Assembly (NCBI GenBank): GCA_003576905.1
Contig: QEVG01000022.1
Coordinates: 1-64,000 of the forward strand
DNA from: Planctomycetota bacterium
GTDB lineage: Bacteria; Planctomycetota; Phycisphaerae; UBA1845; UTPLA1
Direction of reading: 5' to 3'
Length of the DNA stretch: 64,000 nt
Shown here: positions 8,815-63,990 of the stretch, piece after piece
Layout: each line of letters starts with the position of its first letter
Numbering within the stretch: position 1 is the stretch's first letter
The notes under the pieces: generated by a model
Databases searched by the model: none
What the model was told of the DNA's origin: nothing
Seen by the model: only the letters and a program-made list of their open reading frames with translations
Position numbers and translations under genes: made by a program

Positions 8815-10442
8815 CGGCATTCTGGATCATCCTTGCCTATCTTGTTGTTCTCCTGGCGCTGGGCTTTGCGAGCAATCGATTCGCGAAGAAGACGCAGGAA
8901 GATTACTTCCTCGCGTCGCGCGGCGTCGGGCCGTTCATGCTGCTGATGTCGCTCTTCGGGACGACGATGACGGCGTTCGCAATGGTGGGCAGCAGCGCCG
9001 AGGCGTCGCAGACAGGCATCGGCGTGTACGGGATGATGGCCAGCGCCAGCGGCATTGTGCACGCGATGTGCTTTTTCATCGTGGGCGTGAAGCTCTGGGC
9101 GCATGGAAAGCGCTTCGGTTATCTGACGCAGATCGAGTTTTTTCGCGATCGGTTCGAGTCATCGGGGATCGGGCTGGTGCTGTTTCCGATCCTGGTGGCG
9201 ATGATTTTTCCGTATCTGCTTACCGGCGTGCTGGGACTGGGATCGTGCATTACCGGCGTGACGCAGGGGGCGTTTCCAAGTGCGTTCGCGTCGACGAACG
9301 GGGCGGTGCCGCCGTGGCTCTCGGAGGGAATCATCGTCGGCGTCGTGCTGATTTACGTGTTCGTGGGAGGGGTTCGCAGCACGCTTTGGGTCAACACATT
9401 TCAGAACGCGCTTTTTCTGACGCTCGGCGTCGCGGCGATGTTCGTCATTGCCGACCGGCTCGGCGGATTTGACAACGCGACGCGCATGGCGGTGGAGAAC
9501 AAGCCGAGCCTTCTCAAGCGGACCCTCGATCCCAAGGACCGGCCGGCATACGAGGCGAGCGTGGCGCGATACGAGGCGGCGCTGGAGAAGTGGCAGGAGG
9601 CGAAGGCAGGTCCGCCGCCGCGCAGGCCGGCCGCGCCGGGTCTGGGGAAGCTGGAGTTTCTGAGTTACCTGCTGATACCACTTTCGGTGGCGACGTTTCC
9701 GCACCTGTTTCAATACTACCTGACGGCGCGGAACGCGAAGGCGTTTCGAATGTCTGTGATCGGGCACCCGATCTGCGTGTTGATTCTGTGGATGCCGTGC
9801 GTGCTGCTGGGTGTCTGGGCGGCGACGGCGGTGGTCGACGGGCGGCCGGTGGTGCCCCCGGACACGAATCCCAACCAGATCCTGGCGATGGCGATCAAGA
9901 ACCTGACGGGGCCGGTGATGGGCGGGCTGATGGCGGCGAGCATCCTGGCGACGAATTCGCTGGATGCGCAGTTCCTGGTGCTGGGCAACATGTTCACGAA
10001 TGACATCGTGACGCACTACCTTGGGCGAAAGCGCTTCACGGAGCGGCAGCTCCTGGCCCTTGGCCGGGCGTTCGTGGTCGGCGTGGTGGCGGTGACGTAC
10101 GTGGTGTCGCTGGCGGAGCCGCGGGCGGTGTTTCGAATGGGGATCTGGTGTTTCACGGGGTTTACGAGCCTGTTTCCGGTGACGATCGCGGCGCTTTACT
10201 GGCGGCGGGCGACGAAATGGGGGGCCTATGCGTCGATCGTGGCAGGCGGGGCGACGTGGTACGGCTTCTTTCACGCTTCGGGGTTTGGGTCGGTCGAGCA
10301 CTACACCGTCTGGGGGATGCTGCCGGTCGCGCCGGTGACGCTGGCGTCGACGATCGCGCTGGTGCTAGTATCCATCGTGACGCGCCCGCCGAGGCCGAGC
10401 ACAGTCGAACGTTTTTTCGGGAAGCCCGCTCATGCCCAATGA
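8811..10442 (+). CDS. Sodium:solute symporter (SSS family)
   Basis: The 543-residue polytopic protein begins with a hydrophobic helix and shows the SSS-type early motif DYFLASRGVGPFMLLMSLFGT, read around residues 25-45, with many membrane segments to the C-terminus. A charged, alanine/proline-rich loop of about 60 residues (roughly 235-295) interrupts the middle of the protein. The substrate cannot be read from sequence; relatives move pantothenate, proline, sugars or organic acids with Na+. The frame is open well upstream, but ATG 8811 overlaps the preceding stop and starts the first helix, so I chose it. In this operon it could import a precursor or export a product. Confidence 0.85.
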   Translation: MTAFWIILAYLVVLLALGFASNRFAKKTQEDYFLASRGVGPFMLLMSLFGTTMTAFAMVGSSAEASQTGIGVYGMMASASGIVHAMCFFIVGVKLWAHGKRFGYLTQIEFFRDRFESSGIGLVLFPILVAMIFPYLLTGVLGLGSCITGVTQGAFPSAFASTNGAVPPWLSEGIIVGVVLIYVFVGGVRSTLWVNTFQNALFLTLGVAAMFVIADRLGGFDNATRMAVENKPSLLKRTLDPKDRPAYEASVARYEAALEKWQEAKAGPPPRRPAAPGLGKLEFLSYLLIPLSVATFPHLFQYYLTARNAKAFRMSVIGHPICVLILWMPCVLLGVWAATAVVDGRPVVPPDTNPNQILAMAIKNLTGPVMGGLMAASILATNSLDAQFLVLGNMFTNDIVTHYLGRKRFTERQLLALGRAFVVGVVAVTYVVSLAEPRAVFRMGIWCFTGFTSLFPVTIAALYWRRATKWGAYASIVAGGATWYGFFHASGFGSVEHYTVWGMLPVAPVTLASTIALVLVSIVTRPPRPSTVERFFGKPAHAQ

Positions 10443-13902: not shown

Positions 13903-15207
13903 ATGAAGGTCGCATACCTTACCGCCGGCGCCGGGGGCATGTACTGCGGAAGCTGCATGCGCGATAACACGCTCGCGGCGGCCCTGATCCGCAAGAAGCG
14001 CGACGTGACATTGATCCCGGTCTATTCGCCGATTCGCGTGGACGAGCCCGACGTCAGCACGGAGCGGGTCTATTACGGGGGGATCAACGTATTCCTGCAA
14101 CAGAAATCGGCCCTGTTTCGGCATGCGCCCCGGCTGCTGGACCGGCTTCTGGATTCACCGCGGCTGCTGGAAAGGGCCATGCGCAGGGCCGGCTCGGCTC
14201 GGACTGAAGAGCTCGGGCCGCTTACGCTGTCCATCCTCCGGGGCGAGGAGGGGGCGCAGCGCCGGGAACTTGAGAAACTGATCGAGGGGCTTGGCCCCCT
14301 TAGGCCCGACGTCGTGCATCTGCCCAACGCGATGTTCGTGGGGTTGGCGCGGTCATTGCGTGAGGCGCTGGGCGCGGCGGTGGTCTGCTCGCTGACCGGC
14401 GAGGACATTTTTCTGGAGTCGCTGCCGTCGCCGCATCGGGAAGAGGCCTACGGACTGATTCGCCGTGCGGCGGGCGATGTGCACGGTTTCTTTTCCGTGA
14501 CGCGGTACTACGGGGAATATGCGCGGCGGAGGTTCGGAGTCAGCCAGGACCGCCTCTACGCGGTGCCGATGGGCATCCGCGTGGATGACATTCCGCCTGC
14601 ACCGGCGAATCGCGGCGGCGCGGAGCCGTTTACGCTCGGATATCTGGCGCGCGTGTGTCCTGAAAAGGGGCTCCACGTGCTGTGCGAGGCGTTCATTCGG
14701 CTGCACGACAGGGGACTGCGGCCGCGGCTGAAGATCGCGGGATACGTCCCGGAGGGCAGCCGGGAGTACCTGGAAGAGATTCGAACGGGCCTGAGCGAGC
14801 GCGGGCTGGACGGCTTCGTTGGCTGGCTTGGCGAAGTCGATCGGGTGGGGAAGCTGGCGATGCTGGCCTCCTGCGACGTCTTCAGCGTGCCGACCGTGTA
14901 CCGGGAGGCGAAGGGTATTTATGTGCTGGAGGCGCTGGCGCACGGCGTGCCCGTGGTACAGCCGGCGCACGGGTCGTTTCCGGAGTTGATCGGAGCGACG
15001 GGCGGGGGCGTGCTGTTTGAGCCGTGCGACGCGGGCGAACTGGCCGATGTGATCGAGCGGCTGATGGGCGACGAGGCGGAGCGGCGGCGGCTGGGGGCGG
15101 AGGGCCTCCGGGCCGTGCGCGAACACTTTACGGATGAACGCATGGCGGAAGCGGCGTGGGACGCATTTGAGCGGATCGCCGCGCGGGCGGGCACGCGTGG
15201 CGGGTGA
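13903..15207 (+). CDS. GT4-family glycosyltransferase
   Basis: The 434-residue protein has the GT-B fold signatures of family GT4: an N-terminal glycine-rich segment (TAGAGGMYCGSCMRDN) and a C-terminal nucleotide-sugar domain with GYLARVCPEKGLHVL (residues about 247-261). A late block, REAKGIYVLEALAHGVPVV, holds the family's Ex7E-like acid pair. These retaining enzymes transfer a sugar from a nucleotide donor to glycans, lipids or small molecules. No other glycan gene adjoins it. A TATGAT -10-like element (13885-13890) ends only 12 bases before the ATG, so the leader would be very short. Confidence 0.88.
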   Translation: MKVAYLTAGAGGMYCGSCMRDNTLAAALIRKKRDVTLIPVYSPIRVDEPDVSTERVYYGGINVFLQQKSALFRHAPRLLDRLLDSPRLLERAMRRAGSARTEELGPLTLSILRGEEGAQRRELEKLIEGLGPLRPDVVHLPNAMFVGLARSLREALGAAVVCSLTGEDIFLESLPSPHREEAYGLIRRAAGDVHGFFSVTRYYGEYARRRFGVSQDRLYAVPMGIRVDDIPPAPANRGGAEPFTLGYLARVCPEKGLHVLCEAFIRLHDRGLRPRLKIAGYVPEGSREYLEEIRTGLSERGLDGFVGWLGEVDRVGKLAMLASCDVFSVPTVYREAKGIYVLEALAHGVPVVQPAHGSFPELIGATGGGVLFEPCDAGELADVIERLMGDEAERRRLGAEGLRAVREHFTDERMAEAAWDAFERIAARAGTRGG

Positions 15208-15274
15208 GGCGTTCAGCGCGCGGGCGGCACGGGCCGCTCCGTGTCGGGCTCCTGTCCCGCGCGCCGGGTTACCC

Positions 15275-15280
15275 TACAAT
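15275..15280 (+). promoter_or_regulatory. -10 element giving a possibly leaderless ABC transcript
   Basis: TACAAT at 15275-15280 ends six bases before the ATG at 15287, so RNA synthesis would begin at or next to the start codon. The same TACAAT hexamer is used at 5329-5334. A convincing -35 is not visible. Confidence 0.35.
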
Positions 15281-15286
15281 GCGGCG

Positions 15287-15964
15287 ATGGGTTCGGGACT
15301 GGTCGCACAATCCATCGGCAAGTCGTACCCGACGCGCGGCGGGCCGCTGGTCGTGCTTCGTGACGTGTCGATGGCACTCGAGCCGGGGGCGGCGGCGGCG
15401 ATCGTGGGGCCGTCGGGGTCGGGCAAGAGCACGCTGCTTAACATTCTCGGGACGCTGGAGCCGCCGACGGAAGGCAGCCTGTCCATCGACGGGCAGAATC
15501 CCTACGCGCTGGACGAGCCGGCGCTCGCGGTGTTTCGCAACCGGCAGATCGGGTTCGTGTTTCAGGATCACCATCTTCTGCCGCAGTGCTCGGTGCTCGA
15601 GAACGTTCTTGTGCCGACAATGCCGAACGGGAATTCGGAACAGCTTACTGAGCGGGCGCGGTCGCTGCTGGAGCGCGTCGGCCTTTCCGGGCGGCTGGAT
15701 CACCTGCCGTCGGAACTCTCCGGCGGCGAGCGTCAACGGGCGGCGATTGCGCGGGCACTGATCAACGGCCCGAGGCTGCTCCTTGCGGACGAGCCGACGG
15801 GAAATCTGGACCGGGCCAGCGCGGAGGGAGTCGCGACCCTGCTCCTGGAACTTCCGAGGGAGGAAAGCGCCACGCTGGTCGTTGTGACGCACAGCGCGCA
15901 GATCGCGGAGATGATGCAACGGCGGTTTGAGATCCATGACGGCCGGCTGATGCCGAGGGCATGA
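15287..15964 (+). CDS. ABC transporter ATP-binding protein, LolD/MacB-like
   Basis: The 225-residue ATPase has Walker A GPSGSGKST (near residue 44), a Q-loop in FVFQDHHLLPQ, signature LSGGERQRAAIARAL, Walker B LLLADEPTGNLD and the switch histidine in VVTHS. This is the LolD/MacB/FtsE class that powers FtsX-fold permeases in moving lipoproteins, peptides or lipids across the envelope rather than importing solutes. The frame is open upstream into the glycosyltransferase, but the conserved start and the -10 element support ATG 15287. The permease gene starts 10 bp after its stop. Confidence 0.9.
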   Translation: MGSGLVAQSIGKSYPTRGGPLVVLRDVSMALEPGAAAAIVGPSGSGKSTLLNILGTLEPPTEGSLSIDGQNPYALDEPALAVFRNRQIGFVFQDHHLLPQCSVLENVLVPTMPNGNSEQLTERARSLLERVGLSGRLDHLPSELSGGERQRAAIARALINGPRLLLADEPTGNLDRASAEGVATLLLELPREESATLVVVTHSAQIAEMMQRRFEIHDGRLMPRA

Positions 15965-50965: not shown

Positions 50966-51943
50966 CTATCCGCCAAGGCGAACCATGACCGTCGATTGGG
51001 TGCCCCCGCCGCTCGGTGACTTTTCGGCGACGGCTTCTGTCACGATCTGATGCGCTGTGCGGGCACAGAAGCGGCCGTGTTGCCAGATGGGGGCGAGATC
51101 TGCGCTGCGTGGATCGAGGAGACAGGGGTAAAGCCTGCCGTCGGCCGTGACGCGAATCCGTCGGCACTGCGCGCAGAAGGGCCGGCTGATCGGCGCAATG
51201 AATCCGATGCATCCGTCGCCGGCGTCGCCTTGTATTCGAAAGCGCATGGCGGTTGAGCCCCAGCCGCGAAGGAGGGGCGTCATTTCAAAGCGCGCGGCAA
51301 GGGCCTTGCGTACCTCGTCGGCGGCCACGAATCGCTGCCGGTTGACGGTCGCCGCGGGGCCGATGGGCATGGCCTCCAGGTAGCGGATTTCGATTTCGCG
51401 GCGAATTCCCCACTCCGCCATGGGCACAACCTCGTCGTCGTTGAGTCCGCGGAGGACGACCATGTTGACCTTGGGCGGCGGGAAGCCGGCCTCCAGCGCG
51501 CCGTCGATTCCCTTGAGAACGGACGAAAGCGACCCCCCGGTCAGTCGGTGATACCGGTTGGGATCGAGCGAGTCGAGGGAGATGTTGAGGCGATCGAGGC
51601 CGGCCGCGCGCAGGCGGGCAGCCGTGGGTGCGAGGCGGACGGCATTCGTCGTCAGGGCGATGTCGAGGGACGGCGCCGCGTTCCGAATCGCCGCGACGAG
51701 CGGAACGAGCGTCCGGTGCAGGAGCGGCTCGCCGCCGGTGAGTCGAACCTGCCGCAGGCCGAAGGCACCATGAAGGAAGCGAACACACTCGACACGCTGG
51801 CCATCGGTAAGCGGTGCGGGGCCGACGACGCGACCGTCCTCGCCGGACGGCCGGCAGTAAAGGCAGCGCAGGTTGCACGCCGACGTGACCGACAGTCGCA
51901 GATGGTCGATGCGCCGTCCGCAGCCATCGATAAGCCGGGTCAT
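50966..51943 (-). CDS. moaA: GTP 3',8-cyclase MoaA, last gene of the molybdoenzyme operon
   Basis: The 325-residue radical SAM enzyme has CNLRCLYC (CxxxCxxC) near residue 23, TGGEPL, and a C-terminal second cluster motif around CAQCRRIRVTADGRLYPCL. MoaA uses SAM chemistry to begin molybdenum cofactor synthesis from GTP. Its start overlaps the preceding gene by ATGA, placing it in the same message as the molybdopterin oxidoreductase. No other moa gene is in the window, so the operon adds only this rate-starting step. Length is typical. Confidence 0.93.
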   Translation of the reverse strand: MTRLIDGCGRRIDHLRLSVTSACNLRCLYCRPSGEDGRVVGPAPLTDGQRVECVRFLHGAFGLRQVRLTGGEPLLHRTLVPLVAAIRNAAPSLDIALTTNAVRLAPTAARLRAAGLDRLNISLDSLDPNRYHRLTGGSLSSVLKGIDGALEAGFPPPKVNMVVLRGLNDDEVVPMAEWGIRREIEIRYLEAMPIGPAATVNRQRFVAADEVRKALAARFEMTPLLRGWGSTAMRFRIQGDAGDGCIGFIAPISRPFCAQCRRIRVTADGRLYPCLLDPRSADLAPIWQHGRFCARTAHQIVTEAVAEKSPSGGGTQSTVMVRLGG

Positions 51944-52902
51944 GCAATGGCTCCCGATGAGGCATGCCGTCGCCCCGCAGCTGAGGCTTCCGCGATCCGG
52001 ATTTCCGCGCAGCGGCCGCAAATACGTCGCAGAGGCGCATTGCCTTCCCCGTGCGATCCGGGAAGCGCGCTCAGTGCGGTCGATTCGGCCCAGTCGTAGG
52101 TCGGGAATCCGCACGACGGGCACCGCGCGCCGGGTTGGGGGCGCGGGTCGAACTCTTCGTCCGCCAATTGGTCGAGGAGCTTCGGAACACCGTGGCGGCC
52201 CCAGGCCAGGAAATCGGCGTAGGTGGGGCGCTGCCGGGCGAGGAGCTCCCAGACGCGATCAAAAAGCCCATCCGCATCGCGATCGCCCGTGCCGGGAAAG
52301 ACACGGAACAGCTCGGAACGGCGGCGCGGCCGTGCGTCGGCGGGGAGTTTGATTCCGGCCCGGAGACCGGTGCCGTGTTCAAGCCGGGCGTCTACGCTGA
52401 TCGCCCATAGCACGGCGAAACGATCCCGGGCCAGGTCGTGGAACGTGTTGGAGAACTGTGCCTTGGCGGCGGTTCGGTCGTAGGCGAATGCCGGGTCCAG
52501 CATGTCGTCGATGTGCAGGAATTCGTGCATCGCCCAGTAACGGAAGGCATGCTCCTCGAGAAGTCGCGTGAGCGAGAGGGCGAGAGCGATCGTGAAATTC
52601 CCGGGTGCGCCGTACAGTTCGGCGGCCTGGCCCTTCGGAAGCGTCTGGGCCACGACGATGCGGCTGACGGTGGCGCGGATGTGTTCGAAGGCGCCGGCGC
52701 AATCCGCGATTCGTGCCCGAAGACCCAATCCTTCGAACCATTCCTGGTGCAGCCGCCGGAAGGCCTCGTCGCGTGCGTTCGGCGACGGCGCGTCATAACA
52801 CCGTGCGAACCGGAGCTGGTACTCGGAGTGGAGGTCGGGATCGCGTCGCGCCGCTTCAAAGACGCCGCGTTCCATCAGTTCGGGTTGGATGACGATGATC
52901 AT
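51940..52902 (-). CDS. Unknown protein with HExxH and zinc-ribbon motifs, in FdhE-like position
   Basis: A 320-residue soluble protein in the molybdoenzyme operon, ATGA-coupled at both ends. It contains HEFLH (residues 126-130), a match to the HExxH metal-binding pattern, and a C-terminal Cys4 pair CPSC/CGRC (261-264 and 295-298) that looks like a zinc ribbon. I do not recognise the family. Position after a NarJ/TorD-like chaperone gene, and the Cys4 site, recall FdhE-type maturation factors, but the overall sequence is not FdhE as I know it. It may be a maturation or quality-control factor for the exported complex; a protease role is speculation, because HExxH can occur by chance. Confidence 0.6.
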   Translation of the reverse strand: MIIVIQPELMERGVFEAARRDPDLHSEYQLRFARCYDAPSPNARDEAFRRLHQEWFEGLGLRARIADCAGAFEHIRATVSRIVVAQTLPKGQAAELYGAPGNFTIALALSLTRLLEEHAFRYWAMHEFLHIDDMLDPAFAYDRTAAKAQFSNTFHDLARDRFAVLWAISVDARLEHGTGLRAGIKLPADARPRRRSELFRVFPGTGDRDADGLFDRVWELLARQRPTYADFLAWGRHGVPKLLDQLADEEFDPRPQPGARCPSCGFPTYDWAESTALSALPGSHGEGNAPLRRICGRCAEIRIAEASAAGRRHASSGAIA

Positions 52903-53717
52903 TTCCAGCCTCGGCTCTCGGCGGCGGCGGCCAGCGTGGGGCCGAGCTCGACCTGCCCGGCGTCCGGCGCGCCGCAACGGATGGCGACGTCATCTTCGCA
53001 AATGTCGCGTAATTCGATCCACTGGGCCCCGAGGGTGACACCGAGCGTGTCGCACCACGCCCGGAGGAGGGCGTCCGCAAGATCACAGAGCGGGGCCAGT
53101 GGACCGCCGGGCTCGGCACTGCGAACCCGGGTGAAAAACGCCGGCATCCATCGCGCAGCATGGTCTCGGAGGAATGCCCGCTGTGCGTCGCGACAGATTT
53201 CCGACGAGGGAGCGTCGGAGCTTCGGGAGGCCTGAAACTCCCGAAAGGCGAGGATGCAGAGAAACTCCCACTCGGCGACAAGATGGTCGTGTCGCTCGGC
53301 GAGCGGGCCGTCGAGCTGTAAACCGAAAGCATTGTAGAAGCCGGCGATGTCGGCCAGGGTCTGACTTTGCTGAAAGACCTCGGCCTGACAGTACTCGAGT
53401 TCGTAGGGAGGACAGTCGGAGCGAACCGAGTGTCCCAGGAGGCGGTCGCGCGCGTCGCGCAGCGCGTCGATGTCGGCGAGCGTGCCGAAGAGCGCGTCGG
53501 GCGTATCGACGGCGATGCGGGCGCGCAGGCAGGCCTGCTGCACCTCGCTCCGCAGGGCCGGCCCGGTCATCTGCGCGCGGAGCGCGTCAGCTCCGGAGAA
53601 GCACGCGGCGATGAACCGGGACAGAACGGCCCTGGCCCGCGCGGCCTCCCCTTCGTCCGAATGCGTGTCTCGGCCGTTCGACTCAGATGGAGTTGGCATG
53701 CTTGTCGGATCGGACAT
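52899..53717 (-). CDS. NarJ/TorD-family molybdoenzyme maturation chaperone
   Basis: The 272-residue protein contains PPYELEYCQAEVF and LADIAGFYNAFGL (about residues 105-135), the signature of the NarJ/TorD/DmsD chaperones. These bind the Tat signal or the apo-alpha subunit and hold it until cofactor insertion is complete. ATG 53717 has GGAGG upstream and lies 35 bases inside the beta-subunit gene. The stop overlaps the next gene by ATGA. In this operon it is probably the dedicated chaperone of the alpha subunit at 55943-59440. Confidence 0.83.
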   Translation of the reverse strand: MSDPTSMPTPSESNGRDTHSDEGEAARARAVLSRFIAACFSGADALRAQMTGPALRSEVQQACLRARIAVDTPDALFGTLADIDALRDARDRLLGHSVRSDCPPYELEYCQAEVFQQSQTLADIAGFYNAFGLQLDGPLAERHDHLVAEWEFLCILAFREFQASRSSDAPSSEICRDAQRAFLRDHAARWMPAFFTRVRSAEPGGPLAPLCDLADALLRAWCDTLGVTLGAQWIELRDICEDDVAIRCGAPDAGQVELGPTLAAAAESRGWK

Positions 53718-54960
53718 GGACGGGTTCCTCCACCTGCGTTCTGAACATTTCGCGGCCCTTGCGGTCGTAGGCAATAACGGTGTCGTTGTATGTCTCGAAC
53801 TTTTCGCCATCGACGGCCGTCTCGTAGACCTTCGGGCCTTCCTTCAGTTCGTAGCGATGAATGATTCGATTGGAGCGGCGGAACAACTGGAGGACAGCGA
53901 GCAATTCACGGTCAGGCCTGCGATAGCGGGCCACGGCGTCTTTTACGCCCGGACCGAACATTTGCTCGAGGTATCGCGTCGGCACCCATCGCGGCGGGAT
54001 GTAATAGCCGTTTGGCTCCGTGCCGAACTGCGGGTAGAGGGGCAGCGCCACCCGCGCCACGTGAACGAGGTAGTAGAGCGGGTTGTGGCGATCCTCGACC
54101 CAGACGTTGTTCTCGTCGACCTTGACGAGGCCCTGCATGCGCACCTGGCCGATGCAGGCGGCCATACAGCGCGTTTCCATCGGCACGCCGTCGGACTCGG
54201 GGTCCGTTCCTTCGACGCGCGGGTAGCAGGCAATGCACTTTTCACTGGTGCGCGTCGTGCCGCGGTACATGGACTTCTTGTAGGGGCAGGCTTCCACGCA
54301 CTTTCGATAGCCGCGGCACTCCTGCTGGTCGATCAGGACAATTCCATCCTCGGGGCGTTTGTAGATCGCGTTGCGCGGGCAGGCGGCGAGGCACGCCGGA
54401 TAGCTGCAATGGTTGCAGAGTCGCGCGAGGTAATAGAACCACGTCTTGTGCTTCTGATCGCCCGTAAGGGTTTCGCCGGCGCCGAAATCCATCGGCCGGG
54501 AAGGTCCGGAGGGGGGGACGTCTTCATGAATGTTGGGCGCGGTCCATTCCTCCTCCGTGGGCAGATACCCGAGAACGAGGTTGGGCTGGCTGCCGCGGGC
54601 GACGACCTGGGGGGACTCGAAGATGTTGTTCCCTTTGAGTTCGCCGTAGGGTTTTCGCGGTGAAGCATCCGGCGCGCCCTGCCAGGACATGCCGTTCGGA
54701 TTGGCCTGGGAGAGAAGATCGAGGATCTTGACGTCCCAGTGCTGCGGATACCCGCCGTAGGGCTTGGTTTCGACGTTGGTCCACCACATGTGCTCCTGTC
54801 CCTTGGAGAAGGTCCAGGTGCTCTTGCAGGCCATCGTGCAAGTCTGGCAGCCGATGCAGCGGTTGATGTTTATGACGAAGGCGAACTGCTCCTTCGGCGC
54901 CGCCTGGGGATACGGGTAGTTCATCGGGCGGCCGAGTTGCCAGTTGTAAACGGACGGCAT
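53683..54960 (-). CDS. nxrB: Iron-sulfur beta subunit, NxrB/NarH type
   Basis: A 425-residue electron-transfer subunit with four cluster sites. Cys35/38/41/45 (CIGCQTCTMAC), Cys182/185/190/194 (CNHCSYPACLAAC) and Cys242/245/265/269 are ligand sets for 4Fe-4S clusters. Cys215/221/225 with Tyr218 in place of a second Cys (CRGYRKCVEACPYKK) is the 3Fe-4S site; NarH has Trp there. The tyrosine, and the segment MYRGTTRTSEKCIACYP, are as I remember them in Nitrospira NxrB. No export signal is present, so it probably crosses the membrane folded with the Tat-signal alpha subunit. AAGGAG lies upstream of ATG 54960. Confidence 0.9.
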   Translation of the reverse strand: MPSVYNWQLGRPMNYPYPQAAPKEQFAFVININRCIGCQTCTMACKSTWTFSKGQEHMWWTNVETKPYGGYPQHWDVKILDLLSQANPNGMSWQGAPDASPRKPYGELKGNNIFESPQVVARGSQPNLVLGYLPTEEEWTAPNIHEDVPPSGPSRPMDFGAGETLTGDQKHKTWFYYLARLCNHCSYPACLAACPRNAIYKRPEDGIVLIDQQECRGYRKCVEACPYKKSMYRGTTRTSEKCIACYPRVEGTDPESDGVPMETRCMAACIGQVRMQGLVKVDENNVWVEDRHNPLYYLVHVARVALPLYPQFGTEPNGYYIPPRWVPTRYLEQMFGPGVKDAVARYRRPDRELLAVLQLFRRSNRIIHRYELKEGPKVYETAVDGEKFETYNDTVIAYDRKGREMFRTQVEEPVHVRSDKHANSI

Positions 54961-54988
54961 GGCGTACTCCTTGGCGTGACGCGTGACC

Positions 54989-55591
54989 TCAGACGGCTGC
55001 GACGCTCGATGAGAAATTCCAGCGGGCCAGTTCCTCGGCGATTGCGACGTACTTTCCGTGGCGGTCGCCGTGATTCGCTCCATGTTCCAGGCGCTCAAAT
55101 GCGTCGAGCAGTTGCGACTTCTGCCGAGCGCTCAGGACGTTTTCCGCCACCACGAAGAGGATGTTGTCCTCCTTCTGAATGTGCTGGCGAAGCAGGCAGA
55201 TGTAATCTCGCGCGGCACTGCGGACGCCGGCCAGCGCGGCCGCGTCGCCGTTCGCCGCGGCGTCGATGCCGGCGAGCATGTTTCCGATGCAGGTTCGGCC
55301 TGCGTCGTGCTCGTGAAGCATGCAGCCGATGGGGCCGCCCGCGCGCGGCATGCCCGTGCGTTCGAGCTCCGGAAAGAGGCATTCTTCTTCCTTGGCATGA
55401 TGGCAGCCGTCGGCGAAGTTGCGGAGGAAATCGATCGCCTTGAGCAGGAATGCCTTGTCGAACGCGCCGGACTGAAGCATGCGCTCGACGGCATCGAGGA
55501 CACGCTCGATGACCCGGTGTTCGCTCATCAGCACGGCTCGGACCTGTCCTTCTGTGGAATGTTCGTTGCAATGGCACTGGCAGGTACTCAT
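54989..55591 (-). CDS. Hemerythrin-like (HHE) protein
   Basis: A 200-residue helical protein with the HHE-type ligands: EHRVIERVL, HHAKEEECLFPEL, HEHDAGR and HIQKEDNILF. They provide the His/Glu set for a non-heme di-iron centre. The first residues (STCQCHCNEH) are Cys/His-rich. Hemerythrin-like proteins bind or sense O2 or NO, or repair di-iron/Fe-S centres (YtfE class). It lies between the alpha and beta genes, so it may protect the complex from NO or O2, or assist cluster repair. This role is inference. AAGGAG precedes the ATG at 55591. Confidence 0.82.
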   Translation of the reverse strand: MSTCQCHCNEHSTEGQVRAVLMSEHRVIERVLDAVERMLQSGAFDKAFLLKAIDFLRNFADGCHHAKEEECLFPELERTGMPRAGGPIGCMLHEHDAGRTCIGNMLAGIDAAANGDAAALAGVRSAARDYICLLRQHIQKEDNILFVVAENVLSARQKSQLLDAFERLEHGANHGDRHGKYVAIAEELARWNFSSSVAAV

Positions 55592-55594
55592 GTC

Positions 55595-55924
55595 TTACTC
55601 CTTGCTTTCGAGAACCGGCAGGCGGATGCCCGTTTCGGGGATGTTGTCGACGGATACCCGCGTTGACCGGGGGCCGCGACTCAGGAAACAGCCGTCGATC
55701 AGCGCGGCGATCGCGTCGCGGCCAAGCTGCGTGACCGCCATGCGCGGACCCGCAAAGTCAGGCCGCAGGAAAAGCTCCATGATTCCCTTCGGGCTGAAGC
55801 CCAAGCGCGCATACTCCTCGATGAAGCAGATCGCCATCTCGCGAGAGGCGTTGGCGTCGTCGGTCTCGATCTCGACGCCGTGAAGCGTCATGGGATCGGT
55901 TGCGTCGGGGTCGTTAAAGGGCAT
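55595..55924 (-). CDS. Small conserved-position protein, unknown (109 residues)
   Basis: The protein has no membrane segment, signal or recognised motif. It is rich in aliphatic and acidic residues, with a helical middle (MAICFIEEYARLGF) and a C-terminal region ending PETGIRLPVLESKE. It starts 18 bases after the alpha-subunit stop and ends 3 bases before the hemerythrin-like gene, so it is certainly translated with them. Its position between alpha and beta suggests an assembly factor or a small subunit. I have no family name for it. Confidence 0.65.
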   Translation of the reverse strand: MPFNDPDATDPMTLHGVEIETDDANASREMAICFIEEYARLGFSPKGIMELFLRPDFAGPRMAVTQLGRDAIAALIDGCFLSRGPRSTRVSVDNIPETGIRLPVLESKE

Positions 55925-55942: not shown

Positions 55943-58900
55943 TCAGAAGTCCTCGAATACGGGCTGGTCGCCCGCGGCGGGCTCTCCGACGAACTCGCCG
56001 GCGAGGTATTTCTTCATCACATCGCTTTCACTGCCGGGCGACATTCCGGTCGTCGCGGGCAGCCAGATTCCTTTTCCGCCGAGCCCGCCGTCCTCCGCCT
56101 TGACAACGCGGACAAGTGTTTCCTTCGGCACGGTGTTAATGGCATGGTTGTCGGCCTCGCCGCCGAAGATGAAGCCCATGAAGACCTTGGCCTTGTGGAA
56201 GAGCGAGTCGGTCTGGTGCATGGGCATGTGCCAGTTGCGCGTGATGCTCTGCTGCGAGCCGTAGCGCAGGTTCGCCTGATAGCCGTCGTCGGAGAGCGCG
56301 CGGCCGTCAGGGCGCGTCTCGTGCGCCTTGACGCTTTTTTCGGTGGCGATGTACGGCGCGTGCTTGATCATGATGACGCTGTAGGGATAGGCCGGGTTGT
56401 AGGTGGCCCGGAGCATGAGCCGCGCGACCTTGTAGAACGGGTCGTCCGGGCGAGCGCCGACATAGGGCCGATCGGCCGGGTTCGCGTCGACATAGACGTA
56501 GTCACCGTTGTTGATGCCCAGGTCCCGGGCGGCCTGCGGGTTAATGTGAAGCTGGTGCTCTCCGACGTAGGGAGCGCGGCGGTCCATTCGGTGCGGATCG
56601 CCGAAGTTGCTGTCGTAGATCATGTGCCAGTCGACGTTGCTCCAGCTCGAATGCACGCGGTGGCGGGTCTTGGGCGTCACCGCGAAGAAGCGATACCCCT
56701 TCTCCCAGAGAAAGTTCTTCGTCTGCTTGACCTGCTTCCATGGAAGCTTGATGTTGCGAACGGTCCGCTCGTCCCAGTGCTCGGCCTCCGGAGCGATGCC
56801 GTAGTCGTCGGGGCGCACGTACGGGTTGCTGGAGACAATCACGTTGGGCAGGTAGGGCGTCGCTTCGGTGCCTTCGCGATGGACGATGAAGTTTTCCCCG
56901 TACTCGATGGCCTCCGGCACGTCGGAGTAGGCATGCAGCCGCCCGGTGTCCGTGTGGAAAGGCTGGCTGTCGTGGATTTGCTCCCAGAAGGGAATGCGAG
57001 GATAGGTTCGGAAGAGCATCAGGGCCGCGCCCGGGGGGCCGTATTTGCCGGCCATGATGTCGGAGAGCTGGTAGCCGGCGGTCGTCGTGCAGGTGTCGAG
57101 GAGGCGCTGGATATAGACGCCGCGCTTTTTTTCATGCTCAAACTTGAAGTAGTCGTAGAAGCGCTTGTCGCCCAGTTCGTCGCCGACGGCCCGGCAGATG
57201 TTGGCGAGGATCCAGAGATCGTCGCGCGTGTCGAAGATGGGCTTGATGCCGCCTTTCCAGATTTGCAGGAAGGGGTTGGAACACGACGCCGTGATTTCGA
57301 GGTCTTCGAACTCGACCCAACTGTTGGCCGGGAGGCCGAAATCGGCGTACTGGACCGAGGATGTCATCACGATGTCCTGTGAGATGATCATCTCGATGTT
57401 CGGGTTGACGTTCTTGAACATGTCGTAGGCGTGCTTGGCGTTGTTGAAGAGGTTCACGTTGGTGAACTGCAGCGCCTTGGTCGGCGTCGGCATGTGCGAT
57501 TTGCCGGTAAAGACCTTGCGTCCCTTCGGCGTGTTGACAATAAGCGGCCGGTCACCGTGGTTCCAGTAGGCCGGCTCCTCGTCCTTGGTATAGAGGTGGG
57601 CGTGGACTTCCTTGCCATGAGCGCCGTCGTTGAGATTGGGCTCGAAGGGATCCTCGCCGATCCAGCCCTTAAAGCCCGGCCCGGTCTCCTTGCTGCCCTG
57701 GAAGAGCGCGGCCTTGTAGTTGCCCGCCCAGCCGTGCACGCCGGCGCCGGGCTTGCCGATGTTCCCGGTGAGAAGCATGGGCAGGAGGGCGGCACGGTTG
57801 GCCTCGGTGGCGTGGAACCAGTGATTGATGCCTTCGCCCTGATGAATGGCCACCGGACCGCCAGTGCGGGTCACTTCCCAGATGTCAGCCGCAAGGCGCT
57901 GAATCATTTCCTTTGGGCAGTGCGTGATGTCCGCGACGCTTTCGAGGTCGTAGTCCTGGAGGTGAATCTGGTACATCGACCAGAGCGTCATGACTTCCAC
58001 TTCGCTGCCGTCGACGAGCTTGATTTTCCACTTGCCCTCGATGGCCGGATCAATCTTCCTTGCGTCGAGCTTCTTTCCGACATCGTCGCGCGTGATGGCG
58101 GCTGGTTTGTTCGTCGCCTGATCCCAGACGACCCGATCGCCGATCTGGGCATACTGCTCATCCGTCAGGCCCTGAACTTTGAAGCTGACGCCGTCCTTCG
58201 TGAGGGCGTTCTTGTATCCGGGGAACACTTCGTCGGCGCGGAGCCGCTTGAGGTTGTCGCAGCGGACCAGCAGCGGGAAATCCGTGAACTGCCTCACGAA
58301 TCCCGGGTCGTACCACTTGTTGTCCATCATCAGCCGCGTGACGCCAAGCCAGAGGGCGGCGTCCGTCGCCGGACGGATGGGCATCCAGTAGTCGGCCTTA
58401 GTGCTGGGTGCGCCGTATTCCGGAGCGATGACGACAATCCGCCCCCCGCGCTCCATGCACTCGATGAACCAGTGGGAATCGGGGAGCTTGTTCTCCACGA
58501 GGTTCTTGCCGTCCATGATGATCAGCTTGCTGAAGCGAAGGTCGTTGAAGTCGCAGTCGGAGTTCTGGAGGCCGTGGACCCAGGGCTGGCCGGGCGTCTG
58601 ATCCCCGTGCCAGGTGTAATTGCTCCAGTTCCGACCGCCCTTGGCCTGATCGGGCCCGACCTTTCGGATGATCGAGTCGAGCAGGGCCATCGAGTTGTTC
58701 AGCCGATACATGCCGTACTTGCCTATGACGCCGAGCAGGCCCATGCCGCCGCGCATCTTGAAGGTGCGCGTGCCCGCGCCGCCCATGGCTTCGATCATTT
58801 CTTCGGGATAGCCCTGGTCGCGCAGAATTTTCGCGCCCGCCTCTCCGCTGTAGCGCTTGGCGATGGCGATGTAACCCCTGGCGATGTACTTCAGGGCGCT

Positions 58901-59440
58901 GTCCCAGTCGATGCGGACGTGGACGTCCGTGCCGCGGCTGTCGAACTTGTACTTGGACTTGTTCTCCGGCGTCAGGTCGGGGAAGCCGTCGTCGGCCCAC
59001 TGCTTCCAGCCCTTGCGGATGATGGGGTGCTTGAGGCGATACGGACCGTAGATGAGGCGGTGATAGGTGTACCCTTTGGCGCACTGCCGCGGATTCCAAT
59101 TCGGCGTCGCGTGGTGGCCGTAGATATCGCTGTAGGTCTCGTAGTCGTACTGCGCGCCCATGCGAACGATGACGCCGTTGCGCGTGTAGGCCTTCACGCG
59201 ACAGGCATGGGTGTCATTGGGTGAGCAGACCCAGCTGAACGAGCCGTCGTAACTGTACTGGTCGCGGTAGATCTTCTCCCAGTCGCGGGCCGGGTATCCG
59301 GCCAGCGGGTTGACGACATCGGGCCGCGCGGCCAGAGCACTGAGTGACCAGCTCAGGACGCCGCTTCCGCCCGCCGCCAGGACGCAACTGGTCTGGATGA
59401 ATTGCCGCCGAGTGGGTTCGTTTCGGTGCGGGTCAGACAT
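55943..59440 (-). CDS. nxrA: Molybdopterin alpha subunit, NXR/NarG type, Tat-exported
   Basis: The 1165-residue catalytic subunit starts with a Tat signal (TRRQFIQ, Arg11/Arg12, then a hydrophobic stretch), so the active site faces the periplasm. It belongs to the type II DMSO-reductase family. The 4Fe-4S (FS0) site reads Cys72-x3-Asp76-x3-Cys80-x39-Cys120, where NarG has His-Cys-Cys-Cys. Asp280 in YTWHGDQTP aligns with the Mo-ligand Asp of NarG. Whole segments (SPNDTHACRV, WNPRQCAKGYTYHR, RKGWKQWADDGFP) resemble NxrA of Nitrospira and anammox bacteria. The enzyme interconverts nitrate and nitrite; direction cannot be told. GGAGA precedes ATG 59440. Confidence 0.88.
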   Translation of the reverse strand: MSDPHRNEPTRRQFIQTSCVLAAGGSGVLSWSLSALAARPDVVNPLAGYPARDWEKIYRDQYSYDGSFSWVCSPNDTHACRVKAYTRNGVIVRMGAQYDYETYSDIYGHHATPNWNPRQCAKGYTYHRLIYGPYRLKHPIIRKGWKQWADDGFPDLTPENKSKYKFDSRGTDVHVRIDWDSALKYIARGYIAIAKRYSGEAGAKILRDQGYPEEMIEAMGGAGTRTFKMRGGMGLLGVIGKYGMYRLNNSMALLDSIIRKVGPDQAKGGRNWSNYTWHGDQTPGQPWVHGLQNSDCDFNDLRFSKLIIMDGKNLVENKLPDSHWFIECMERGGRIVVIAPEYGAPSTKADYWMPIRPATDAALWLGVTRLMMDNKWYDPGFVRQFTDFPLLVRCDNLKRLRADEVFPGYKNALTKDGVSFKVQGLTDEQYAQIGDRVVWDQATNKPAAITRDDVGKKLDARKIDPAIEGKWKIKLVDGSEVEVMTLWSMYQIHLQDYDLESVADITHCPKEMIQRLAADIWEVTRTGGPVAIHQGEGINHWFHATEANRAALLPMLLTGNIGKPGAGVHGWAGNYKAALFQGSKETGPGFKGWIGEDPFEPNLNDGAHGKEVHAHLYTKDEEPAYWNHGDRPLIVNTPKGRKVFTGKSHMPTPTKALQFTNVNLFNNAKHAYDMFKNVNPNIEMIISQDIVMTSSVQYADFGLPANSWVEFEDLEITASCSNPFLQIWKGGIKPIFDTRDDLWILANICRAVGDELGDKRFYDYFKFEHEKKRGVYIQRLLDTCTTTAGYQLSDIMAGKYGPPGAALMLFRTYPRIPFWEQIHDSQPFHTDTGRLHAYSDVPEAIEYGENFIVHREGTEATPYLPNVIVSSNPYVRPDDYGIAPEAEHWDERTVRNIKLPWKQVKQTKNFLWEKGYRFFAVTPKTRHRVHSSWSNVDWHMIYDSNFGDPHRMDRRAPYVGEHQLHINPQAARDLGINNGDYVYVDANPADRPYVGARPDDPFYKVARLMLRATYNPAYPYSVIMIKHAPYIATEKSVKAHETRPDGRALSDDGYQANLRYGSQQSITRNWHMPMHQTDSLFHKAKVFMGFIFGGEADNHAINTVPKETLVRVVKAEDGGLGGKGIWLPATTGMSPGSESDVMKKYLAGEFVGEPAAGDQPVFEDF

Positions 59441-61284: not shown

Positions 61285-61312
61285 ATTATATATTTCTTGA
61301 TCTACATATCAA
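61285..61312 (-). promoter_or_regulatory. Strong promoter of the molybdoenzyme operon
   Basis: On the minus strand TTGATA (61312-61307) and TATAAT (61290-61285) are spaced by 16 bp, close to consensus. RNA would begin near 61278. The -35 hexamer overlaps one arm of the TTGAT-N6-ATCAA dyad (61297-61312). Confidence 0.7.
61297..61312. promoter_or_regulatory. Candidate regulator site TTGAT-N6-ATCAA
   Basis: A perfect inverted repeat with 5-bp arms and a 6-bp spacer overlaps the -35 of the molybdoenzyme promoter. A closely similar dyad lies at 62018-62033 before the divergent gene. The spacing (N6) differs from FNR boxes (TTGAT-N4-ATCAA). The adjacent Rrf2 regulator is the likeliest ligand. Confidence 0.45.
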
Positions 61313-61343: not shown

Positions 61344-61754
61344 CTATCTTCCGCGGCCGCCCAGACCCTCCATCCCGACGTCTCCCAGGGTCACCTTCTC
61401 GAGCATTTCCCGGTAGGCCCGGGAAATGGGTTTCCAGAACTCGTGAAAGCCGCAGGGGTGGTCGTCGTGGCACCGCGGCTGGCCGAAGGGGCAGCGCGAC
61501 CGGTCCAGGACATCGTCAAAGGGGGCCAACACCTGAATCAGCTTGATCTTGTGGGCGGGTTTGGCGAGACGAAAGCCGCCCCCGACGCCGCGGGCGGATT
61601 CGAGCAGGCCCTCGCGCACGGCGTCGCGGAGGATGTGAGAGAGGTATTGTGCCGGAACCCCGGTCTTGGCGGCGATTTCCCGCGCCAGGACCGGGTGCTC
61701 GTCGGATTTACCGGCCACGTAAACCAGGGCGCGAAGGGCGTATTGTGCGGTCAT
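61344..61754 (-). CDS. Rrf2-family Fe-S transcriptional regulator (NsrR/IscR-like)
   Basis: A 136-residue winged-helix protein that begins MTAQYALRALVYVA, the usual Rrf2 start. It has GVPAQYLSHILRDAVREGLL as the recognition region and GVGGGFRLAKP as the wing. Three cysteines (CPFGQPRCHDDHPC) occur at C-x6-C-x5-C; NsrR and IscR have C-x5-C-x5-C at the same place, so an Fe-S cluster is likely. NsrR senses NO. The gene lies directly upstream of the molybdoenzyme operon on the same strand and is divergent from the 4Fe-4S protein gene. ATG 61754 is used, as the open frame upstream lacks homology. Confidence 0.87.
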   Translation of the reverse strand: MTAQYALRALVYVAGKSDEHPVLAREIAAKTGVPAQYLSHILRDAVREGLLESARGVGGGFRLAKPAHKIKLIQVLAPFDDVLDRSRCPFGQPRCHDDHPCGFHEFWKPISRAYREMLEKVTLGDVGMEGLGGRGR

Positions 61755-62049
61755 CGAGAGCACGGCAATTATGGACCTCCACGTCAAAATATAGATTATC
61801 ATCCCCCGGCGCGGCCGTCCAGTGTAATTTCGTACGGGCGCCGCAGGGCGCGCCACCGGCTGGTCACTGGATTTTCCTTCGGAGGTCCGCCTCTGCCGGT
61901 GTCTGGAATTCGAGGGCGTCTGAAAAAAGGGGCGGTCCGGGGGCGTTCCCGCCACCGGGGGGTTGGTTTGTAAAAAAGCGGCGCCGCAATCTGGACTGAA
62001 GACTTAAATATGATAACATGATAAAGATATCAATACTAGAGGCGCCGCC
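61755..62049. other. Divergent regulatory region of rrf2 and the 4Fe-4S/TPR gene
   Basis: The 295-bp gap has AT-rich blocks near 61770-61800 and 62000-62040, each near one of the two divergent starts, with GC-rich DNA between. ATGATAA occurs twice in tandem at 62010-62024 and once, on the other strand, near 61793-61800. No protein gene is seen. Confidence 0.5.
62018..62033. promoter_or_regulatory. Candidate regulator site ATGAT-N6-ATCAA
   Basis: TGAT (62019-62022) and ATCA (62029-62032) are separated by six bases, 17 bases before the ATG at 62050. The arrangement matches the dyad at 61297-61312, suggesting that one regulator acts on both units. Confidence 0.4.
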
Positions 62050-63990
62050 ATGCCGAAAAAGCCCAGCCTCCGCGCCCGCCGGAACCAGCAATCCGGGGCC
62101 GCACCCGACCGCCGTGCGTCCCGCGCCGCCGCCCAGGGAGCGGCCGACCCCGGGCGCTCGTACGGCTGGCGGCGCGCGCTGTGCCTGATTCTCGTGCACG
62201 TCCTTTTCGTCATTCACATCGTGCACTGGCGGCTTGCCGGGCGGACGCTCGCGCCGCTTGAGCTCAACGAGGTGATGTATACGCTGGAGATCGGGATCGT
62301 CACGGCGGGCTTTGTCTTCATGGCCGTCGCCTGCCTGGCTACGCTGATCTTCGGCAGGTTTTTCTGCTCCTGGGGCTGTCACATTCTCGCGCTGCAGGAT
62401 CTCTGCGCCTGGCTGCTCGCGAAGCTGCGCATCCGGCCCCGGCCGATTCGATCGAGAACGCTCGTGTTCGTGGCGCCGATCGCGATGCTGTACATGTTCG
62501 TGTGGCCGCAGATCACGCGGTTGCTCGACGGCCGGCCGATGCCGATCCTCCATCTGCGCGGCGACGGCGAGGGCTGGGCGTCGTTTGTTACCGGCAACTT
62601 CTGGCGAAACCTGCCGGGCCCGGGTGTCGCCATGTTGACATTCCTCATCTGCGGGTTTGCCATCGTCTACGTGCTCGGCGCGCGGTCCTTCTGCGCTTAT
62701 ATCTGCCCCTACGGCGCGGCGTTCGGGCTTGCGGACCGGCTGGCGCCGGGCCGCATCGTCGCCCGCGGAGATTGCTCCAGGTGCGGGCTCTGCACGGCGG
62801 TGTGCCAGTCGCGTGTCCGCGTGCATGAGGAGGCGTCGCTCTATGGGCGCGTCGTCAACCCGGCGTGTTTGAAGGATCTGGACTGCGTCGCGGTATGCCC
62901 GGACAAGGCACTGGCCTACGGCCTGGCACGGCCGCCGGCGTTTGACTTTCTGCGACGTCCGCGGCTTTCGCCCAAGGCCTACGACTTCACGCTTGCCGAA
63001 GATGTTGCGCTCGGCGCCGTGTTTCTCGCGACCTTTTTTGTTTTCCGCGGACTCTACGAGCGTGTGCCGTTTCTGATGACACTCGGCCTGTCGGCGATTC
63101 TCGGGGCTTTGGCCGTGCTGTGCGTCCGACTGGTTCGTGCTCCCCACGTGCGACTGGCGAATCTCCACTTGAAAACAGGCGGCCGCCTGACCGGCTGGGG
63201 GCGCGTCTTCGCAGCGCTGTGCGCCGGGCTCCTCCTGCTGACCCTGCACAGCGGGTTCATCCGATTCGAGCAGTTTCGCGGCGGGCGGGCGATGCGCGAG
63301 GCCGCCCGGGCCCGCGCGGCCAATGACCTGGGATCGCTGACGGCGTCGGTGAACCAGGCCCTCACGCATTTTTCAATCTGCGAGCGATGGGGACTGTATC
63401 GCCCGCCGGAACTGCTGCACCGCATGGGCTCGCTTCACCTCGAATTGAAGAATCACGAGGCGGCCGATGAATATCTCGCTCGCGCTTTCGCGGAGTCGCC
63501 GGACGATCAGTCGCTGCGTCATGATTACGCGAGCGCTCGGTTTGCCCTGGGACAGGCGGCGGCGCAGCAGGGAGACCTTCACCGCGCGACGATCCACTTT
63601 CGCAAGGCGGCGGGTGCCCGTCCCGACGTGCCTGAGTTTCACTACAACCTGGCGGTGATGCTCTCGGCCACCGGCCGGTTGGACGAGGCAATCGAGTCGT
63701 ACCGGGCCAGCCTTCGGTTGTCGCCGGAGGACGTCGATACGCTGAACAACCTGGGGTTGGCCCTGGCGCAGTGCGGCAGGCTGGACGATGCGCTCGTGCC
63801 GCTTCGGCGGGCGGTGATTGTGCGCCCCGACGCGGCGGATCCGCATTTCAACCTGGGACGCGTGCTGGCGATGAAAGGTCAGGAGGTCGAGGCCGCGATC
63901 CACCTGGCCCGCGCCGGGGAGTTGAATCCCGCTTACGAAGCCTATCGGAACGAAGTGACCCGGTCCGCCACGAACGCCCGCGGACGGTAG
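62050..63990 (+). CDS. NosR/NapH-like 4Fe-4S membrane protein fused to TPR domain
   Basis: The 646-residue protein starts with a basic tail, then about five membrane helices. Between them are FFCSWGCHI (about 103-111) and SFCAYICPYG (about 213-222), motifs shared with NosR, NapH and CcoG. Two ferredoxin-type sites follow: CSRCGLCTAVC (241-251, last ligand C-Q rather than C-P) and CLKDLDCVAVCP (276-287). The C-terminal ~200 residues contain about four TPR repeats. NapH/NosR-like proteins pass quinol or ferredoxin electrons across the membrane to periplasmic reductases, so this could serve the molybdoenzyme. The TPR fusion is unusual. ATG 62050; no strong Shine-Dalgarno. Confidence 0.85.
   Translation: MPKKPSLRARRNQQSGAAPDRRASRAAAQGAADPGRSYGWRRALCLILVHVLFVIHIVHWRLAGRTLAPLELNEVMYTLEIGIVTAGFVFMAVACLATLIFGRFFCSWGCHILALQDLCAWLLAKLRIRPRPIRSRTLVFVAPIAMLYMFVWPQITRLLDGRPMPILHLRGDGEGWASFVTGNFWRNLPGPGVAMLTFLICGFAIVYVLGARSFCAYICPYGAAFGLADRLAPGRIVARGDCSRCGLCTAVCQSRVRVHEEASLYGRVVNPACLKDLDCVAVCPDKALAYGLARPPAFDFLRRPRLSPKAYDFTLAEDVALGAVFLATFFVFRGLYERVPFLMTLGLSAILGALAVLCVRLVRAPHVRLANLHLKTGGRLTGWGRVFAALCAGLLLLTLHSGFIRFEQFRGGRAMREAARARAANDLGSLTASVNQALTHFSICERWGLYRPPELLHRMGSLHLELKNHEAADEYLARAFAESPDDQSLRHDYASARFALGQAAAQQGDLHRATIHFRKAAGARPDVPEFHYNLAVMLSATGRLDEAIESYRASLRLSPEDVDTLNNLGLALAQCGRLDDALVPLRRAVIVRPDAADPHFNLGRVLAMKGQEVEAAIHLARAGELNPAYEAYRNEVTRSATNARGR

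Follow-up and report, generated by a model that had tools for sequence, protein, structure and literature searches.

The window, i.e., the whole stretch of DNA that was analysed (64,000 nucleotides), comprises bases 1–64000 of the 81,730 bases of contig C27, in a genome of 4.71 Mb and 65 contigs. Near its end lies a real and intact open reading frame with an ATG start, termed FeSTPR here, which has the following features:

62050..63990, plus strand: FeSTPR, 646 aa, Fer4_5-ferredoxin-TPR fusion
62176..62235, plus strand: TM1 region with the conserved HxxHW (H56, H59, W60) near its predicted periplasmic end (hydropathy, alignment)
62365..62382, plus strand: first Cys motif CSWGCH, CX3CH rather than CX3CP, with H111 (alignment)
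62692..62709, plus strand: second Cys motif CAYICP (CX3CP)
62773..62805, plus strand: ferredoxin motif 1, CSRCGLCTAVC, with four Cys
62866..62901, plus strand: ferredoxin motif 2, CLKDLDCVAVCP, with Asp276 replacing the second Cys (Asp in 42, Cys in 23 and Thr in 3 of 68 aligned rows)
63205..63261, plus strand: TM7 (residues 386–404) with H400 (hydropathy, model, alignment)
63406..63927, plus strand: TPR repeats (approx. residues 453–626), predicted periplasmic (Pfam, model)

In the following, relatives are called Asp, Cys or Thr rows after the residue found at the position of Asp276.

Domain architecture of FeSTPR

Pfam recognizes Fer4_5 in two stretches of FeSTPR (40 bits, cut-off 22) and many TPR models at approx. 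residues 453–626, among them TPR_2 with 82 bits (cut-off 27), while ferredoxin models match residues 240–287, all below their cut-offs. The NapH/MauN models TIGR02163 and NF007013 align to residues 196–291 with E-values of approx. 1e-15; their curated cut-offs are not reached (55.6 of 213.05 bits and 56.1 of 234 bits, respectively). When the PDB was searched with the membrane part, the sole match was a ferredoxin (E 0.097). These matches agree with the original prediction of a membrane 4Fe-4S module of the NapH/NosR/CcoG type fused to C-terminal TPRs.

The AlphaFold2 model of FeSTPR, based on a 13-row alignment, has a mean pLDDT of 69. Its TPR half is confident, with ten-residue pLDDT means of 89–98 over residues 451–630, whereas the membrane half is of low confidence and, consequently, no electron or cofactor path was drawn. 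The last helix is unbroken from residue 382 to 423 in the model, so that TM7 would pass straight into the TPR solenoid. As the architecture is kept across tens of genomes, it is due neither to chance nor to an assembly join. Judged from its domains, FeSTPR is one protein, in which a NapH-like membrane iron-sulfur module is followed by TPRs.

Membrane topology

Hydropathy indicates seven helices at approx. residues 44–62, 83–101, 137–155, 193–211, 313–331, 341–359 and 386–404. Across 42 relatives, loops assigned to the inside have 32, 28, 13 and 23 Lys plus Arg per 100 residues, and those assigned to the outside 8, 11 and 4; the same pattern was found in 23 more distant sequences (65 in all). 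The stretch directly after TM7 has 15.7 Lys plus Arg per 100 residues, which is not decisive on its own. Seven helices and an N-terminus on the inner side would place the ferredoxin part in the cytoplasm and the TPR arm in the periplasm. Based on the positive-inside charge rule, the TPR arm is thus predicted to lie in the periplasm, which is the side envisaged originally. The four-helix module with a cytoplasmic ferredoxin part that marks NapH is also present in FeSTPR, as judged by hydropathy and charge only.

Distribution and branches of the family

Genome surveys of FeSTPR relatives were conducted within Planctomycetota. Relatives with an E-value of 1e-20 or better are present in 80 of 298 genomes of the class, and at 1e-15 in 61 of 294 Planctomycetota genomes, anammox bacteria included. 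The latter are represented by family f70, in which six of nine genomes examined pass the hydrazine dehydrogenase cut-off; its homologs in G395 and G515 (both over this cut-off) and in G358 (under it) all combine Fer4_5 with TPRs. A contig scan using short exact peptides recovered 16 relatives, 12 strong and four weak. Ten of the strong ones are planctomycete records and two are labelled only 'bacterium'; seven of the 12 belong to Phycisphaerales, and the named ones are uncultured. The weak ones are records of other phyla. No Fer4_5-TPR fusion was found in the titles and abstract openings of a limited open-access literature.

The same fusion recurs among the relatives with the Asp-type ferredoxin variant, as a domain-architecture search suggested by the original prediction makes plain: Fer4_5 is present in 42/42 and TPR in 40/42 of them, with TPR_19 in 40/42 Asp rows and 20/23 Cys rows. 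H56 and H59 are each conserved in 40 of 42 Asp rows, the remaining two being gaps, and H400 in 41 of 42. H111 is invariant (42/42 Asp rows, 23/23 Cys rows); H59 and H400 are kept in 17 and 20 of the 23 Cys rows. Asp and Cys rows have in common a first motif of the CX3CH form, the HxxHW of helix 1 and the His400 of helix 7, none of which occurs in five NapH/CcoG-like proteins aligned alongside. The least conserved part of the family is the TPR region, and 148 to 328 residues follow TM7 in the Asp rows.

In a tree of 72 proteins (391 columns), a branch consisting mostly of CxxDxxCxxxCP sequences is set apart from a CxxCxxCxxxCP branch. The split has modest support (94/84), and long-branched rows are found on the Asp side. 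Two rows with Cys, L065 and L077, are placed on the Asp side; both are included among the 23 Cys rows in the neighbour and alignment counts. The Thr rows, three in number, are united with full support within the Cys branch, so that this Cys was lost in two lineages (Asp and Thr). In Pyrococcus furiosus ferredoxin, an Asp at this motif position serves as a cluster ligand. The window's FeSTPR is an Asp row, and a Cys-type paralog is found on contig C30 of the same genome. L010 and L011 stem from the same genomes as L057 and L059 and were excluded from the tree, the model alignment and the topology and neighbour counts; L108–L111 were left aside when Asp and Cys rows were compared. In the tree, L108 is represented by a different ORF (14510–15682), which stands by itself at the drawn root; the true homolog lies at 7820–9337.

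A divergent NXR operon

FeSTPR is divergent from the molybdoenzyme operon, as already noted in the original prediction, and an Rrf2-family gene lies in between. The following genes were assigned:

61344..61955, minus strand: Rrf2-family regulator (Pfam Rrf2, 104 bits), start probably near 61802 by codon score
59477..61276, minus strand: NxrC-like fusion of cytochrome c domains and an ethylbenzene-dehydrogenase-type domain (TIGR03477, 107.9 bits, under the cut-off of 169.85)
55943..59440, minus strand: NxrA, NXR alpha subunit, with a Tat-like signal (RRQF by eye), by homology to 7b04_B
55595..55924, minus strand: 109-aa protein without Pfam family, in several other NXR loci too
54989..55591, minus strand: hemerythrin-domain protein (Pfam, 81.7 bits)
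53683..55098, minus strand: NxrB iron-sulfur subunit, probably starting downstream of the start listed here
52899..53810, minus strand: NarJ-like assembly chaperone (PF02613, 62 bits)
51940..52977, minus strand: 345-aa protein without Pfam family, in other NXR loci too
50966..52123, minus strand: MoaA-like molybdenum cofactor gene (Pfam)

NxrA matches 7b04_B (PDB 7b04) with 1747.7 bits over 10–1151 of 1165. By sequence, the molybdoenzyme is classed as an NXR of the anammox/Nitrospira kind.

Co-occurrence with nxrA-like genes, for which the original prediction had called, is pronounced. Among the 298 genomes, a close FeSTPR was found in 22 of the 23 with a close NxrA (31 of 42 NxrA rows, those above 1100 bits), G029 being the exception, vs. 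15 of the 275 others; the FeSTPR fragments of G300 (two rows) and G291 (one row) were left out of this table. The FeSTPR group above 400 bits stands for the Asp rows but holds at least two Cys rows (G013 C70, G049 C41). These class-wide counts take descent into account within two families only, where the tables read 9/1/0/5 (p 0.002) and 13/9/0/6 (p 0.018); in the family tables, G012, where NxrA is partial and more distant and FeSTPR has no match, was entered as being without both. The 37 class genomes with a close FeSTPR include 15 without a close NxrA. G044 and G047, two of these 15, have a more distant NxrA, and in G007, also one of them, the contig breaks off within genes of the NXR-operon type. 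In 11 of the 24 genomes with both (the 22 plus G044 and G047), FeSTPR and NXR lie within approx. 7 kb. FeSTPR and NXR are strongly linked, without the link being obligate or exclusive. With co-occurrence and predicted periplasmic TPRs, we found the reverse of what would speak against the original prediction, namely cytoplasmic TPRs and no co-occurrence.

It has already been published that planctomycete MAGs carry NXR genes (PMC10732223). Clusters that include a five-heme cytochrome are described there too, although with NrfD- and ActD-type genes as neighbours, and neither TPR nor NapH is mentioned in its main text.

In L060, L063, L064 and L067, an extra gene is located between the NXR operon and FeSTPR. 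In L067 it is an NnrS-DUF1858 fusion which, together with a methyltransferase gene alongside, suggests nitric oxide stress handling. A COX3 protein with a cytochrome c domain (L074:12598–14022) adjoins a more distant NXR set (NxrA 62–63%).

A dyad common to both transcription units

The two divergent units have a dyad in common, as claimed in the original prediction, which also recurs in other NXR-linked loci:

61297..61312, no strand: dyad TTGATCTACATATCAA, exact TTGAT-N6-ATCAA, before NxrC
62018..62033, no strand: dyad ATGATAAAGATATCAA, TTGATN6ATCAA with one mismatch, the FeSTPR ATG following 16 bases after its end

Allowing at most one mismatch, the dyad occurs three times in the window vs. 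0.66 expected, a number reached in 2 of 100 shuffles; the third match (58038) is inside nxrA. In 1.3 Mb of loci, the exact dyad occurs only three times, and two of these sites precede NxrC in L007 and L057. With at most one mismatch, a dyad precedes FeSTPR in 5 of 13 NXR-linked loci, compared to 48 such sites in 1.3 Mb overall, and in L057 also the pentaheme gene. FeSTPR and the NXR operon may therefore be co-regulated, and the nearest candidate for a dyad-binding regulator is the Rrf2 protein encoded between the two.

A pentaheme cytochrome next to FeSTPR

Just beyond the window, downstream of FeSTPR, a c-type cytochrome with five CxxCH is encoded (C27:64119–65957). Its ortholog in L010 has a dockerin score at the C-terminus; the AlphaFold2 model of this ortholog (4-row alignment) has a pLDDT of 31. 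Neighbouring genes were called with a home-made codon-based caller. A gene with at least four CxxCH was found within 3 kb in 22/42 Asp rows vs. 0/23 Cys rows (p 5e-6), the background being 26 of 280 other genes from these loci. In 18 of the 22, the heme gene is on the same strand at less than 500 b, and 17 of these are pentahemes. Regarding the Thr rows, one gene is beside a pentaheme, one beside a pentaheme relative broken in frame and one beside NXR. For the 18 loci with an adjacent heme gene, NXR was seen within 10 kb in six and not seen within 10 kb in 12. In 20 of the 42 Asp rows no heme-rich gene was seen within 3 kb, with 5 of the 42 loci ending at most 2.5 kb from the gene, and 11 of the 42 have neither heme gene, NXR nor lyase (see below).

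Viewed from the cytochrome, strong pentaheme relatives (above 600 bits) occur in 19 of the 298 genomes, 16 of them within approx. 10 kb of a FeSTPR gene. The remaining three (G049, where the gene is near NXR, G055 and G142) are not near a FeSTPR gene. When weaker pentaheme relatives are included, 85 of the 298 genomes have one; the proximity counts cover only the 19 rows above 600 bits.

Several other genes were observed in these neighbourhoods. In L071, L077 and L081, the cytochrome near FeSTPR is not a pentaheme but a larger multiheme protein of 6 to 8 motifs. A beta-eliminating lyase of the tryptophanase type (PF01212) is encoded within 5 kb in 10/42 Asp rows and 1/23 Cys rows (e.g., L058:14601–16004, L121:6855–8288, L122:8950–10461). 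In the anammox-family genome of L110, an apparent NrfH/NrfA pair was recognized by eye (L110:11770–13831), 1–2 kb from the FeSTPR homolog. Beyond the window, an island at C27:66198–73171 (L007:12199–19172) holds a second Rrf2 gene and genes for Rieske, cytochrome b, octaheme HAO-like, cupin and NapA proteins. The octaheme protein has an HAO-type domain (Multi-haem_cyto, 82.7 bits; hydrazine dehydrogenase 67 bits vs. a cut-off of 900), and NapA scores 948.5 bits, above the cut-off for one model.

Proposed role of FeSTPR

The sequence shows the domains, the common dyad, and cytochrome and NXR genes that recur as neighbours; from these, we infer docking and a flow of electrons. In our preferred reading, for which we see roughly balanced chances, FeSTPR would be a NapH-type inner-membrane conduit between quinone and cytochrome, whose periplasmic TPR arm docks the adjacent pentaheme. 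The membrane module would exchange electrons, in either direction, with the quinone pool or a cytoplasmic donor via its iron-sulfur centres. The pentaheme cytochrome c encoded beside FeSTPR could dock to the TPR arm and pass electrons to periplasmic nitrogen-oxide enzymes, i.e., NXR, the octaheme HAO-like protein or the island NapA. The conduit role is drawn by analogy, as FeSTPR has the same module as NapH, the membrane part of which was proposed to oxidise menaquinol and to hand electrons to its periplasmic partner NapG (PMC5928378). The first Cys motif of NapH is required for electron transfer (PMC5928378). Further, the ferredoxin Cys has disappeared twice, each time in a lineage with a cytochrome/NXR context, which favours electron transfer without proving it. 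On the other hand, the 20 Asp rows with no heme-rich gene seen within 3 kb count against a conduit, as do the 11 rows with neither heme gene, NXR nor lyase, the three strong pentaheme relatives away from a FeSTPR gene and the spread of pentaheme relatives over 85 genomes. The Cys rows, in which the fusion is kept and none of 23 has a heme-rich gene within 3 kb, also count against it, as does the poorly conserved TPR region, which is odd for a fixed docking site.

Alternatively, FeSTPR could be a maturation factor for the pentaheme (or NXR), its TPRs holding unfolded apocytochrome while the iron-sulfur module feeds heme attachment or metal handling; we regard this as possible, albeit rather unlikely. 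Periplasmic TPRs of the CcmI/NrfG type bind apocytochromes, and the iron-sulfur modules of CcoG and NosR presumably supply electrons for the metal or heme handling of their enzymes. A TPR arm predicted in the periplasm and adjoining a multiheme gene would fit such a task, and a TPR part of variable length would suit a chaperone. NosR has a role in NosZ activation (PMC5928378). The CcmH/CycH TPR domain PF23914 is matched weakly (28.1 bits in FeSTPR, under the cut-off of 42; E 0.001 or better in 22/42 Asp rows), but this says little, as TPR models cross-match widely. However, loss of the ferredoxin Cys goes along with having the cytochrome as a neighbour, as would suit a tuning of electron transfer, and the ordinary CxxCH sites of a five-heme protein could be served by general systems. 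That the NapH-like module merely carries a generic scaffold, with a TPR arm organising unrelated envelope proteins and neighbours that reflect a common nitrogen-respiration island, is less probable still. Such a scaffold would accommodate the Cys rows, which retain the fusion although none of the 23 has a heme-rich neighbour within 3 kb, as well as the weakly conserved TPR sequence; it does not sit well with same-strand adjacency of the heme gene across families, also in genomes outside the class, or with a Cys lost twice in the cytochrome/NXR context.

The original prediction named the gamma subunit as an example of a periplasmic partner docked by the TPRs. Its periplasmic side is supported by loop charge, while no evidence was found for docking of the gamma subunit: the most consistent close neighbour is the pentaheme, and in 12 of the 18 loci where the two genes adjoin, no NXR was seen within 10 kb. 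Docking of NxrC is not supported. The divergent gene, the common dyad and NXR within approx. 7 kb in 11 of 24 genomes would fit FeSTPR as an NXR-specific membrane link, which we nevertheless deem improbable; the pentaheme is the likelier docking partner of the TPR arm. The structure paper on anammox NXR (PMC8387239) names NXR-A, -B, -C and NXR-T; the words TPR and tetratricopeptide are absent from its main text, and the lone match to 'naph' is a naphthoquinone. It does expect a further binding partner of NXR-C (PMC8387239). Finally, cytoplasmic TPRs recruiting a soluble donor were rejected on loop charge and are highly improbable. Nothing was found in their favour, the charge of the stretch after TM7 being indecisive, and the pattern of the other loops in 65 sequences stands against them.

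The conduit reading may be taken further, although we think this extension unlikely to hold in full. FeSTPR would then represent a planctomycete-specific class of quinone–cytochrome conduits, in which the TPR arm holds the pentaheme, H56/H59 and H400 bind a heme close to the periplasmic face, and a cluster site turned into an Asp or Thr type more than once, as a tuning to nitrogen-oxide respiration. In these bacteria it might supply the membrane link that is missing between NXR and the quinone pool. To our knowledge, little is known of the way in which periplasmic NXR and multiheme cytochromes are connected to the membrane. FeSTPR is a candidate for this link in many planctomycete genomes, and offers a testable partner, a putative docking arm and a diagnostic residue change. 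The phylum, holding both anammox bacteria and NXR-bearing uncultured lineages, provides the setting for such a candidate, and one paper on the structure of NXR does not settle which partner NXR-C has (PMC8387239).

Comparison with known systems

CcmI and NrfG are periplasmic TPR proteins which serve c-type cytochromes and are not known to have an iron-sulfur module. FeSTPR resembles them in its predicted periplasmic TPRs beside a c-type cytochrome gene, but carries an iron-sulfur module, and its score for their TPR model is under the cut-off. In CcoG/RdxA/FixG, Fer4_5 is followed by a ferredoxin, a later helix and an extracytoplasmic C-terminal domain. FeSTPR has this order in common with them, but its C-terminal domain is TPR, and the Ig-like FixG domain is absent among the 20 Pfam families it matches, so membership in CcoG was rejected. 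Relatives that we labelled CcoG-looking (L022, L023, L025) have neither the extra His nor the Asp. The four-helix module with two CX3C motifs is also known from NosR and PceC (RdhC) (PMC5928378). The NosR-type FMN domain was not found among the same 20 families, and FeSTPR was therefore not assigned to NosR.

The anammox-family protein (L108–L110) is similar in domain order (Fer4_5 and TPR in 3/3) and in CX3CH, at approx. 30% identity, but its second motif is CxxCxxCxxxC; none of the genes called in these stretches has an NXR label. With NapH/MauN (TIGR02163, NF007013), FeSTPR shares the Fer4_5 membrane module and a ferredoxin domain after the fourth helix, and all 42 Asp rows match these models at E 0.001 or better. 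The differences are a first motif of CX3CH, whereas NapH has two CX3CP motifs (PMC5928378), a second ferredoxin motif of CxxDxxCxxxCP instead of two four-Cys [4Fe-4S] motifs, three extra helices, the TPR arm and the conserved HxxHW and H400. Taken together, the motifs and domains indicate that FeSTPR is a variant of the NapH-like kind, outside NapH as defined by the models, rather than a new principle.
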